Positions 27,270 to 34,110 of a stretch of DNA of 35,684 nucleotides are shown here, one piece after another. This DNA comes from a virus: IMG/VR virus record IMGVR_UViG_3300044951_000343, positions 1-35,684 of that record; one strand, given 5' to 3'. Both the position numbers and the translations under genes were made by a program. Within the stretch, counting starts at the first letter, position 1, and each line of letters opens with the position of its first letter. The notes beneath the pieces are model-generated. The model ran no database searches, was not told the DNA's origin, and was given only the letters and a program-made list of their open reading frames with translations.

Positions 27270-27512
27270 TTAAAATGGAATGTCACTTTCAATGTCTTCA
27301 GGTTTGTTAGTTTTAACTGGCTCGCTAACATACGGCTCACTAAATGAAAAGCTAAAAAACTTGCCTGATTTGCCTTCTTTTAACCAGGCTGACATACGCA
27401 TCTCTTTGCCGTTGATCATGCAGTTGCCGGTGTAGTCCGGGTGAGTATCTTTTTCTTTGCGGTTGTTCTTAAAAAGACTGCCGCTGTTATCTCGTTGTTC
27501 ATATTGTGCCAT
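27270..27512 (-). CDS. Small protein with SSB-like C-terminal tip (putative ssDNA-binding protein)
   Basis: An 80-aa protein with start at 27512 and site AAAAGGGAACTAAC. The N-terminal 55 residues look like a short beta barrel ([36 protein letters not shown]). The last residues, EDIESDIPF, match the acidic DDIPF tip by which bacterial SSB recruits replication and repair partners. It directly follows the annealing-protein gene. A phage mini-SSB or an SSB mimic that competes for host partners is the likely role; the fold is inferred. Confidence 0.65.
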
Positions 27513-27513
27513 G

Positions 27514-28104
27514 TTAGTTCCCTTTTTGATATTTTTTAAATGATGATCGTGTTTTACTATCTAACAGTCCCCACAAGGCAGCTTTCTGCTCATTGTCTAG
27601 TGAGTCCCATATTGTTTTAGCTTCGTCAGGCTTGCTGTCAGCCACAAACGCTGTAAACGAATCAGCCAGCTCATGCAAGATGTCCATCTCTTCCTGGCTA
27701 AACTCCGGCTGCTTAAGCTCTAAAGTCTTAGGCTTTTCAGTAGCGTCTTCCTCAGGAAGGTCCTCACCTGTATAAATATAAAGCCCCAAACCATGTAGCG
27801 CAATAGCCTTGGCAAGACACCGTTGCATCGCTGTATTGACAAACATTGCATCAGGATTTGCAATAGCTTTGTTGCGATAATCCATGACAGGTAGTTGAGC
27901 GCACATATCTTTGCCAAAAGCTTTAACCGTGCAAAAGACCATGAGCGTTTCACCAAACTTTGCTGGCTCCCCAAAAGACCATGTTGCGGTAGGATCAAGT
28001 TGTAACAACTGGTCAACAGCCCATGCCCATGATAGGTAGTTAAGCCCATTTTTCTGTTCAATATGCTCATTTACATTTACCTTTCTGATTTCAGAATAGT
28101 TCAT
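27514..28104 (-). CDS. Single-strand annealing protein, DUF1071/Sak3-type
   Basis: A 196-aa protein that I recognise as DUF1071, the Sak3-type recombinase family: [20 protein letters not shown] near the start, then [28 protein letters not shown] and [20 protein letters not shown] with GEDLP. The C-terminal 75 residues form an acidic, helical tail. The family is Rad52-like and anneals complementary single strands. Its stop is one base from the SSB-like gene, which fits joint work in recombination-dependent replication. Confidence 0.85.
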
Positions 28105-29648: not shown

Positions 29649-30314
29649 ATGCACTATTACCAATTTAACATTGGCGATTATTATAGTCATACAAAACATT
29701 TGTCACCTATTGAGGATATATGTTACCGCAGATTATTAGACTATTACTATTTACACGAAAAGCCATTAACTAGCGATATTGCAAAATTAGCTAGATTACT
29801 AATGCTAAATGAATATCAAGTAGAATTAATGACTGTGCTTGATGAATTTTTTGTTGTAGTTACTGAAGGCTTTATAAATCCTAGGGCAGACAAAGAAATT
29901 GAGCAATATCAATCATTTAGTGAGGCTGGTAAGCGTGGGGCTGCTAAAAGGTGGTCAAAGGGTGGTGATAGCGAGGTTATAGGGGGGCTATCAGGGGGTG
30001 TATCAGAGGCTAATGCTAACCATAAACCAATAACCACTAACCATAAACCATTAACCAGTAAACATAAAACAAATAACAAGCTTGATTATGAATTAGGCCT
30101 TGGATGGATTAATTATCAAGCGTTCCTAGAGAAAGCTGAAGTTGACTTCCCGTATGTGGACATTTTAAAAGAGTTTGACAAGGCTGGTGCTTGGATTAAA
30201 GAAAAGCCAAGTCAAAGGCAAAAAACTGATTACAACAGATTTATGCTCAATTGGATTAAACGAGTAGCCGAAGTGACGCCAAACCCTAATGACATATTCT
30301 TGGGGGCTATATGA
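29649..30314 (+). CDS. Replication protein with DUF1376 domain
   Basis: A 221-aa protein with site GGAGTAAAAAA. Residues 1-90 are a DUF1376 (YdaU-like) domain: YYQFNIGDYYSHTKHLSPIE then YRRLLDYYYLHEKPL and a winged-helix-like stretch. A disordered linker follows with a short repeat (NHKPITT, NHKPLTS, KHKTNN), then a C-terminal helical domain with WIKEKPSQRQKTDYNRFMLN. Such proteins act at phage origins as initiators or helicase loaders. It opens a run with primase-zinc-finger and helicase genes, overlapping the next by four bases. Confidence 0.8.
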   Translation: MHYYQFNIGDYYSHTKHLSPIEDICYRRLLDYYYLHEKPLTSDIAKLARLLMLNEYQVELMTVLDEFFVVVTEGFINPRADKEIEQYQSFSEAGKRGAAKRWSKGGDSEVIGGLSGGVSEANANHKPITTNHKPLTSKHKTNNKLDYELGLGWINYQAFLEKAEVDFPYVDILKEFDKAGAWIKEKPSQRQKTDYNRFMLNWIKRVAEVTPNPNDIFLGAI

Positions 30315-30715
30315 TAAACAACCTATTAGGCCGTTTAAACAAAGTTAAGTCTACTGGCCGTAACTCTTATTTGGCTTGTTGCCCAGCTCACGATGACAGA
30401 AGCCCTAGCCTATCCATTAAAGAGGAAGCAGACGGCCACATACTATTGCATTGCTTTGCTGGGTGCAGTGCTGTTGATGTTGTTGGGGCAATAGGTGTTG
30501 ACATAGGTGACTTGTTTCCAGAGCAGGTGCATCACAAAGCACCAGTTAAGAAGAAGTTTTACGCCACAGACATCTTAGAAGCTATCAAGTATGAGTCGCA
30601 AATCGTTCTCCTAGCTGCGTTTGAGCTAAAGAAAAATAAACCGCTTGACGAAACTGACTTACAGCGTTTACAGTTAGCTTACGAAAGAATTAGAGAGGCG
30701 GTTGATTATGAGTAA
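30311..30715 (+). CDS. Primase zinc-binding domain protein (CHC2-like)
   Basis: A 134-aa protein. Cys24-Pro-Ala-His27 and Cys48-x3-Cys52 with PAHDDRSPSLSI between them form the zinc ribbon of DnaG/phage primases, which reads template sequence. The RNA-polymerase (Toprim) domain that normally follows is not present, so this is the zinc domain alone with a C-terminal helix (LQRLQLAYERIREAV). It sits between the initiator and helicase genes and overlaps both, and may work together with the helicase or host primase. Confidence 0.8.
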   Translation: MINNLLGRLNKVKSTGRNSYLACCPAHDDRSPSLSIKEEADGHILLHCFAGCSAVDVVGAIGVDIGDLFPEQVHHKAPVKKKFYATDILEAIKYESQIVLLAAFELKKNKPLDETDLQRLQLAYERIREAVDYE

Positions 30716-31676
30716 TCTAGAAAGAGGCGCAACAGCTTTAGATGAGGCTAGACGCAAGCGAGCAAGCATGATGTTGCCAAAGGTTGACTTTGAAGGCTTT
30801 ATGAAAGCCAGGGAAGAAGACAAGGCTAATGTTAAGTCGGCTAGTCAGTATCAGTCAGAGGTTATAGACTACTTTTACAAAGACGAGCAGATGCAAGGCG
30901 TTAAGTTGCCTTGGGAAAAGACCTTTGACCAGTTTAGGTTGCGTCTAGGTGAGGTAAGTCTGTGGTCAGGTATAAACGGCCATGGTAAGAGTCAGCTAGT
31001 GGGCCAAGTAATCAACTCTATCGTGCAACAGGATTTTAAGGTGTGTGTGGCTTCGTTTGAGATGCACCCATACTCAACCTTACAGCGAATGACTAGACAG
31101 GCCACAGGCACAGAAAAACCGACAGAGAAGTTTATTGGTGAATACTTTACATTCTTAGATAACAGGCTGTATATGTATGACCAGCAAGGCACAGTAAACG
31201 GTGAGCGTGTTATAGCTGTTTTGTATTATGTGGCTGAAACGCTAGGTGTGCAGCATTTTGTGATTGACAGCTTAATGAAGTGCGGTGTAAGGTCTGATGA
31301 CATGAACGCTCAAAAGGAGTTTTTGGATAAGCTTTGTGCAGCAGCTAGGGATTTGAATGTCCATGTGCATTTGATTGCTCACAGCCGTAAGGGTGAGGAT
31401 GAGTTTAGCCCACCTAACAAGATGGATGTAGCTGGCTCTGCTGACATTACTAACCAGGTAGACAATGTGATGACTGTTTGGCGTAACAAGAAAAAAGAAA
31501 AGTTAATTCGTAGTGGTAAGGCGAAAGAGGAAGAGTTAAATGCACCTGATTGCTTGTTGATATGTGATAAGCAGCGTCATGGTGAATGGGAGGGCGAGAT
31601 TGCATTGTGGTTTGATGCACCATCTATGCGATACAAGGGAAGCCAACACGAAAAAGTGTGGCAATTAAAATTTTAG
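30708..31676 (+). CDS. Replicative DNA helicase, DnaB/Twinkle-like
   Basis: A 322-aa RecA-fold ATPase. ATG 30708 overlaps the end of the primase gene; a TTG at 30702 is the alternative. Walker A is GINGHGKS at 88-95, with FEMHP at 117-121 carrying the catalytic-type Glu, Walker B HFVIDSLMK with Asp187, then LIAHSRKGEDE and the DnaB-type block AGSADITNQVDNVMTVWRNK. The N-terminal DnaB domain is missing and replaced by about 75 residues with charged helices, as in small phage helicases. It would unwind the fork as a hexamer with the neighbouring zinc protein. Confidence 0.85.
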   Translation: MSNLERGATALDEARRKRASMMLPKVDFEGFMKAREEDKANVKSASQYQSEVIDYFYKDEQMQGVKLPWEKTFDQFRLRLGEVSLWSGINGHGKSQLVGQVINSIVQQDFKVCVASFEMHPYSTLQRMTRQATGTEKPTEKFIGEYFTFLDNRLYMYDQQGTVNGERVIAVLYYVAETLGVQHFVIDSLMKCGVRSDDMNAQKEFLDKLCAAARDLNVHVHLIAHSRKGEDEFSPPNKMDVAGSADITNQVDNVMTVWRNKKKEKLIRSGKAKEEELNAPDCLLICDKQRHGEWEGEIALWFDAPSMRYKGSQHEKVWQLKF

Positions 31677-33444: not shown

Positions 33445-33730
33445 TTACAGAAACAAGAAATTGCTAGAGCTTTGCCGGGACATCCCTTGCCAATCATGTG
33501 GCGCTATGGACGGCACAGTATGTGCAGCACACTCTAACCAATTGCGTGATGGTAAAGGCACCGGCATCAAGGCAAGCGATGCTATGGTGGCTGCCATGTG
33601 TGCAAGATGCCATTTTGAACTAGATAACGGTATGGCCCTAAATAAGCAGGACCGCAAAGATATGTGGGAACTGGCCCACAGGATGACTATGCAGCACTTC
33701 ATTGAGCATGGTATGCTGGTGGTCAAATGA
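33437..33730 (+). CDS. YbcO/DUF1364-like nuclease
   Basis: A 97-aa protein. GTG 33437 gives MPNYRNKKLLEL and overlaps the upstream stop; an in-frame GTG at 33428 is an alternative. The body has PCQSCGAMDGTVCAAHSNQL, RDGKGTGIKASD and CARCHFELDNG, the DUF1364/YbcO pattern: two Cys pairs around an Ala-His-Ser-Asn site, as in HNH-type nucleases. Lambdoid phages carry this protein in the same place just before rusA. It overlaps the rusA start by four bases. Confidence 0.8.
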   Translation: MPNYRNKKLLELCRDIPCQSCGAMDGTVCAAHSNQLRDGKGTGIKASDAMVAAMCARCHFELDNGMALNKQDRKDMWELAHRMTMQHFIEHGMLVVK

Positions 33731-34110
33731 TTAAACTTACACTGCCATGGCCGCCTAGCACCAATCACTCACACCACTACGGAGGCAAACGCAAGTTTTT
33801 AAGCAAGCCTACGCAGAAATTTAGGGAGGATGTCCAGGACATAGTTGTAGATGCAAAGGCTAAAATAGATGGAAGGTTGGCCGTGTTCTATGCTTTCTAT
33901 CCACCAGATCGCAGGCGTAGGGACATAGCCAACTACGAAAAGCAAGCTACAGACGCATTACAAGCTGCCGGCGTATTCTTAGACGATGAGCAGATAGATT
34001 TTATATGGCTAGTGCGTAGGCACATTGTTAAGGGCGGCATGTGCAAGGCTGTTATTGTGCCATACACAGAAGTACACCAAATGCTAGAAAAATACGAGGA
34101 TTACATTTAA
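33727..34110 (+). CDS. rusA: Holliday junction resolvase RusA
   Basis: A 127-aa protein. The RusA pattern is clear: LPWPPSTNHSH at the start, YPPDRRRRDIANYEKQATDA around 58-76, then AAGVFLDDEQID at 80-91. RusA cuts four-way junctions as a dimer with three Asp at the metal site. Here Asp66 and Asp86/87 are present, but the position two after Asp66 (Asp in E. coli RusA, from memory of D70-x-D72-N73) is Ala68, so the site may differ. It would clear branched DNA before packaging. The stop overlaps the next start. Confidence 0.9.
   Translation: MIKLTLPWPPSTNHSHHYGGKRKFLSKPTQKFREDVQDIVVDAKAKIDGRLAVFYAFYPPDRRRRDIANYEKQATDALQAAGVFLDDEQIDFIWLVRRHIVKGGMCKAVIVPYTEVHQMLEKYEDYI

Follow-up and report, generated by a model that had tools for sequence, protein, structure and literature searches.

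A very small probable phage SSB encoded beside a Sak-family annealing gene, and the two other tip-bearing classes that replace it in related loci

Can a phage protein of 80 residues that ends like bacterial SSB serve as the phage's own SSB, or does it borrow just the tip? The question is raised by a locus in the IMG/VR virus record IMGVR_UViG_3300044951_000343, of which positions 1 to 35,684 (35,684 nucleotides, termed the window here) were analysed. An earlier note on this DNA had described an open reading frame whose 80-aa product closes with EDIESDIPF; the frame, its position, the length of the product and its C-terminal residues are all borne out by the sequence. The coding sequence together with its stop codon occupies 27270–27512 on the (-) strand, and its product, a predicted minimal SSB-like protein, is referred to below as the window protein. 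The adjoining annealing gene that the note had also proposed is indeed found at 27514–28104 on the (-) strand, where it encodes a 196-aa single-strand annealing protein of the Sak family (Pfam SSAP_Sak, E 3.5e-38; PHROG Sak-like, E 9e-44). The ATG of the window protein lies 1 base beyond the stop of sak, and as a Shine-Dalgarno-like AAGGGA (27519–27524, (-) strand) is located inside the 3' end of sak, 6 nt before that ATG, translational coupling from sak to the window protein is likely. Divergent replication genes are present on the (+) strand of the window (29649–31676 and 33727–34110), and encode a DUF1376 primosomal protein, a CHC2 zinc finger primase piece, a DnaB-like helicase and a RusA-like resolvase.

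The window protein is, most probably, a genuine and functional phage SSB of very small size. We put at roughly three in four the probability of a minimal SSB that belongs to the phage itself, in which a core would cover ssDNA and the tip would bring partners. Its last nine residues (residues 72–80; 27273–27299, (-) strand) form the acidic tip ending in hydrophobic-Pro-Phe that is characteristic of bacterial SSB, and are predicted to function in partner recruitment. Conservation of this tip was studied in 162 complete family proteins (the window protein and 161 from viral contigs), 129 of them distinct, using the pattern [D/E]x0-2[I/L/V/F/M/Y/P]P[F/W]. The proteins came from three viral-contig scans (the best 80 of 587, the best 80 of more than 581, and all 32 relatives), leaving out L056, which is cut by a contig end, and the named-phage proteins L001–L003. 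The tip is the C-terminal end of 116 of the 129 distinct proteins and is followed by at most eight further residues in another nine, so that it is present, terminally or nearly so, in 125 of 129, in a sample that may favour tips because relatives were ranked by similarity to tip-bearing queries. Both the likeness to the SSB tip described in the earlier note and its conservation among homologues, the lack of which the note would have counted against its proposal, are thereby upheld. All eight of the named-phage relatives examined also end in the tip.

Several lines of evidence argue that the tip is not a product of chance. Among 1998 other distinct ATG-started ORFs of at least 60 aa in loci L001–L165, the pattern was found nine times, and by their coordinates all nine are family members (eight read from an upstream start, and L081, missed by the family filter, which had set aside 94 other ORFs); on our reading of these matches, the tip occurs in no non-family ORF among the 1998. 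Within the 116 tip-ending proteins all four Pro codons (48/40/22/6) and both Phe codons are used, and since synonymous codons vary under the tip it is the residues rather than the DNA that have been kept. Family conservation, the ORF control and this codon variation together rule out a chance tip.

The tip is attached to a body of two contrasting parts, a conserved core (residues 1–59; 27336–27512, (-) strand) and a variable, probably disordered linker (residues 60–71; 27300–27335, (-) strand). An AlphaFold2 model of the window protein has four strands (residues 10–15, 27–33, 36–46 and 51–58) and no helix, with a mean pLDDT of 79; block means are 88–93 over residues 11–60 and 57–58 over residues 61–80, the tail being of low confidence and free of predicted structure. 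In an alignment of 44 relatives, hand-picked from 59 representatives, mean column entropy falls from 2.58 bits in linker residues 59–75 to 1.40 in the core and 0.83 over the three final residues, which makes the linker the most variable part and the tip the most conserved part of the tail. The linkers are 73 percent Pro, Ala, Lys, Gln, Ser, Glu and Gly, and the disordered linker of bacterial SSB has a similar composition. Conserved core positions in the 44 relatives comprise Gly, Phe, Asn, Lys, His, Pro and Trp, with the Gly, Phe, Asn, Pro and Trp columns invariant or nearly so. The core of the window protein carries a charge of +3 and its last nine residues -4, and across the 59 representatives core charge ranges from -1 to +4 (mean +2.1).

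These features suggest how a minimal SSB of this kind might work. The mostly beta core of about 60 residues, which carries +3 and has aromatic and Lys residues at conserved positions, would be the ssDNA-binding part and would probably act as an oligomer, and the flexible linker would hold out the acidic tip, DIPF. Sak, as the co-translated partner, would dock there, as might host readers of the SSB tip (RecO, PriA, RecG), and the docked partners would be delivered to phage ssDNA, leading to annealing and to concatemer-forming replication. The ssDNA binding, oligomerisation and partner docking are put forward by analogy. A point against a minimal SSB is that the host's own SSB is always available.

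To which family does the protein belong? It matches PHROG 18154 (E 6.3e-15) and PHROG 7364 (E 1.8e-10), both of which are annotated 'single strand DNA binding protein', a transferred label, and all 44 hand-chosen relatives receive the same assignment. Among 23 phage records containing a relative at E <=0.01, the relative is annotated as SSB in 16, as hypothetical in five and not at all in two. As these PHROG and phage-record annotations already name the family SSB, its filing as a phage SSB is known and not new; a survey from 2016 of how dsDNA viruses replicate their DNA may already name the family. Members of the same sequence family include proteins of Acinetobacter phage SH-Ab 15497, Pectobacterium phage PM1 and Microcystis phage Mae-JY35. 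The eight named-phage relatives examined (of the 23 records) are 85–130 aa long and several have long Pro/Gln/Ala-rich linkers, whilst the window protein has 80 aa and a short linker; among viral-contig relatives, which span 64–119 aa (median 83), 80 aa is an ordinary length. A distant scan from an Acinetobacter protein gave eight stretches and no relative.

The established SSB families do not account for the window protein, which at E <=1 has no match to PF00436 (the bacterial-type SSB OB domain), to DUF669 (PF05037, the HK620-type SSB) or to Enc34_ssDNA-bd (PF10991, the T7 gp2.5/Enc34 type); in separate PF10991 and PF05037 searches the controls were silent. The nearest Pfam resemblance is to DUF736 (PF05284), membership of which was rejected because the window protein scores 15.7 bits against a curated cut-off of 22.1. 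This weak likeness spans residues 12–69 and is seen at E <=0.1 in 18 of the 44 relatives (best 0.0011), and a remote link between DUF736 and the PHROG 18154/7364 family is possible. DUF736 genes (L326, L327) were found in one of four bacterial MAGs, the one that also holds a distant family match. Matches restricted to one or a few relatives were set aside as evidence, both those to SLT_beta (1/44) and Shiga_Stx2B (2/44) and those to the SSB models PRK06958 (3/44), PRK05733 (2/44), PRK08763 (1/44) and TIGR00621 (1/44).

Fold searches with the window protein against solved structures gave nothing significant (best Foldseek E 0.7 in the PDB, best VIA Z 3.9), and the best sequence matches to solved structures, at E 0.15 and 0.45, are likewise not significant. 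No fold was assigned from Foldseek, where Enc34 SSB chains appear at E 1.4–2.2 amid unrelated rows, or from VIA, where Pur-alpha (Z 3.9) is accompanied by Ku, Sub1 and SH2 rows within one Z unit. At E <=0.001 there are matches to 11 predicted phage proteins (67–151 residues), nearly all of them unnamed or uncharacterised.

Comparison with characterised SSBs places the window protein more precisely. Bacterial SSB (PF00436; E. coli SSB) shares with it the acidic DxIPF tip on a flexible linker, and PF00436 SSBs also occur downstream of sak in related phages. The two differ in their cores, which show no detectable likeness (profile probability 0.2 percent without the tail), and in size: the body had been described as much shorter than a normal SSB, and the window protein does have 80 aa against open frames of 133–143 aa for the phage PF00436 SSBs. 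A canonical or shortened SSB is ruled out by the PF00436 result and by the unrelated cores. The SSB of phage HK620 resembles the window protein in lying beside an annealing-protein gene and in having an SSB-like tip; it is, however, a 21.3 kDa DUF669 protein with Sak4 as its partner, whilst the window protein has no DUF669 match and Sak as its predicted partner. For HK620, it is reported that the SSB stimulates annealing by Sak4 chiefly by way of its tip NDYPPF, that the last six residues of the SSB are needed for Sak4 to bind SSB-covered ssDNA, and that their loss lowers the stimulation of recombineering tenfold without abolishing it (as described in PMC5928155). In staphylococcal phages sak or sak4 is described as clustering with ssb and both as contributing to phage replication and concatemers, with the Sak or Sak4 of phages 80alpha and phi11 working with the neighbouring Ssb (as presented in PMC5499656). 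A phage SSB of different ancestry is also reported to complement E. coli ssb-1 (as outlined in PMC3208561).

The main alternative, which we consider unlikely, is that the protein is a tip mimic or adaptor: its core would bind Sak, the exonuclease or the replisome in place of coating ssDNA, and its tip would draw host SSB partners or compete with host SSB. A core smaller than the usual SSB domain, for which no OB fold has been established, fits such an adaptor, as does a tip that is the best conserved element of the tail. Gene neighbourhoods bear on both readings. The nearest same-strand gene of at least 60 aa was recorded upstream for 56 of the 59 representatives, and found to encode a YqaJ exonuclease in 15, ERF in 12, SSAP_Sak in six and Rad52 in one; if no protein matches two of these four families, 34 of the 56 genes belong to annealing or exonuclease families. 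The corresponding 52 downstream genes include one YqaJ, three NinB, one RusA and no annealing family. The varied upstream genes suggest that the PHROG 18154/7364 protein is kept while its recombinase partner changes, and such varied annealing or nuclease neighbours would also suit an adaptor. Against an adaptor, the family coding sequence adjoins a DNA polymerase gene, not an annealing gene, in three phages, two of Acinetobacter and one of Burkholderia (L003, L329 and L331). These three phages encode an (aminooxy) adenylosuccinate synthetase, which we take to be PurZ-like.

Also relevant to the alternatives is what accompanies sak when the family is absent. A scan from Sak proteins yielded 80 loci. 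In a first pass the PHROG 18154/7364 family was found in 38 of them, never with a second tip-bearing ORF, whilst 19 of the other 42 have a different tip-bearing ORF downstream, either a long open frame (133–143 aa, five loci) or a short one (79–95 aa, 14 loci). Four of the five long frames tested as PF00436 SSBs, and the remaining one (L232) shares 81 percent identity with L211. The short frames led to a second class of phage protein, class B, a tip-bearing family of about 83 aa downstream of sak (L244–L321; for example L206:5228–5476 and L328:3001–3282).

Class B is like the window protein in its similar size, in the same tip and in lying downstream of sak, but only the last nine columns are in common and the predicted layout of strands differs. 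All 53 distinct class B proteins of the set collected for this class end in PF. The six that were tested have no significant Pfam family and only weak matches to PHROG 18187/37570, which are of unknown function, and fold searches with class B gave nothing significant (best Foldseek E 0.39, best VIA Z 2.7). Eight Pseudomonas or sludge phage records contain a class B relative; three of these relatives are annotated as SSB, one of them adjoining an exonuclease. When profiles of the three classes were compared they aligned only over the last 9–13 columns, and with the tails removed no meaningful match was left (probabilities 0.5, 0.2 and 7.5 percent). As only the tails align, the tip is the common part of the three classes; judged by sequence, the tail is all that is detectably shared by the PHROG 18154/7364 family, class B and canonical SSB.

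A profile scan of the 80 Sak loci assigned 39 to the PHROG 18154/7364 family, 17 to class B, five to PF00436-like SSB and two to class B with PF00436-like SSB, leaving 17 with none; for the 64 loci with at least 1.5 kb downstream the corresponding counts are 36, 17, three, one and seven. None of the 39 loci with the PHROG 18154/7364 family has class B or canonical SSB. What is new here is that three tip-bearing classes replace one another in Sak loci, and that in these the PHROG 18154/7364 family never meets either of the other two. The gene of the family or of its replacement lies between touching sak and about 2.4 kb downstream of it; in one PF00436 case (L204) the gene runs on the strand opposite to sak and stands apart from it.

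The same pattern was observed when 85 records, which in IMG/VR may be fragments, were searched whole (35 chosen by the PHROG 18154/7364 family, 13 by class B and 37 by Sak). The 37 Sak records, all of at least 10 kb, contain the PHROG 18154/7364 family in 24, class B in six, PF00436 in four and none in three, with two classes together in no record. Two of the three blank records stop 52 and 100 bases past the Sak match and L199 is a true blank, with sak and none of the three SSB classes in a 16.9-kb record. PF00436 was absent from the 35 records chosen for the PHROG 18154/7364 family, and class B had no match in the same records in a search whose positive control was silent; the 13 records chosen for class B contain neither the PHROG 18154/7364 family nor PF00436.

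Exchange between the classes is incomplete. Seven loci with at least 1.5 kb downstream are blank (L199, L202, L207, L209, L231, L233 and L242); the L207 record holds the PHROG 18154/7364 family elsewhere, and L202, L209, L231, L233 and L242 were covered at the locus only. Two further loci (L195 and L200) have a tip-less class B protein beside a tip-bearing canonical SSB. These seven of 64 blank loci and two mixed loci indicate that the three classes are not fully interchangeable. The cases of exclusion are also related by descent, since a Sak tree built from 62 of the 80 loci (55 distinct rows, the 18 then-classless loci being left out) shows six class changes in its best version, and well-supported branches require at least two of them. 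One supported sister pair joins L188 (PHROG 18154/7364 family) with L217 (PF00436), the latter on a long branch that was flagged as unsure. A hypergeometric value of 8e-7 for the exclusion ignores this relatedness and is not relied upon.

For the adaptor these loci count in two directions. The tip-less class B proteins next to canonical SSB look accessory-like, which would favour an adaptor role for class B at least. Against it, no canonical SSB accompanies the PHROG 18154/7364 family in any of the 35 chosen records, the 37 Sak records or the 80 Sak loci. The earlier note had left the choice between a minimal SSB and a mimic, and it is the minimal SSB that is favoured by the conserved tip and core, by the annealing and exonuclease neighbours and by the lack of co-occurrence with canonical SSB; a pure mimic fits less well, since it would have no need to exclude a phage SSB or to keep an invariant core. 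That the protein is some other small nucleic-acid or nucleotide-processing accessory, such as an annealing-protein subunit, and has its acidic PF end by coincidence, would agree with the weak resemblance to DUF736, a family of unknown function, and with the absence of any experiment on the PHROG 18154/7364 family among the papers listed in literature searches, but is very improbable given a tip that is nearly universal in the family, has undergone synonymous codon change and does not recur in the unrelated ORFs that share its contigs, and given the exclusion with canonical SSB.

What stands out beyond the window protein is that three apparently unrelated cores occur with a single tip in groups of genes that share an annealing family. 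A wider reading, offered tentatively, is that phages have at least two unrelated ssDNA-binding cores of fewer than 90 residues (those of the PHROG 18154/7364 family and class B), that each of these acquired or retained the same SSB tip of nine residues, and that both interchange with canonical SSB, with one tip-bearing protein per phage. With the three classes interchanging around a single family of annealing proteins, the tip, and not the DNA-binding fold, would then be the conserved functional unit. If this were true, few known SSBs would be as small as these cores, which may lack an OB fold. Three kinds of protein beside one annealing family, with the tail alone in common, provide an economical test of the minimum content of an SSB. 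Detection of phage SSB is reported to trigger the Nhi, Hachiman, Septu and Eco8 retron defences (as covered in the review PMC12904381), and as these defences are triggered by phage SSB, SSB swapping could evade recognition. A further use for tip-bearing proteins of 80 aa could be as small cofactors in recombineering with Sak or Erf proteins.

A small number of proteins depart from the usual arrangement of the tip. In the two mixed loci the tip-less class B gene is directly upstream of the SSB (L195:5130–5747 and L200:2479–3099), as if the tip had passed between them. Four of the 129 distinct family proteins have no in-frame tip (L066, L071/L072, L163 and L164); in L066, L071, L072 and L163 the tail ends differently (DDFLSNL) or has no tip, and L164 (4971–5220) is a member shortened by an in-frame stop, after which a tip-like SDLPF follows in frame. 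The possibility that the L164 contig belongs to a TAG-recoded phage was rejected, as reading TAG as sense raised coding coverage no more than did other stops, and with no sign of TAG recoding L164 was counted among the proteins with no in-frame tip. Residues beyond the tip are found in L086, L117 and L324 (TSEWR, APEWR and AACKD), and also in the class B protein of L228.
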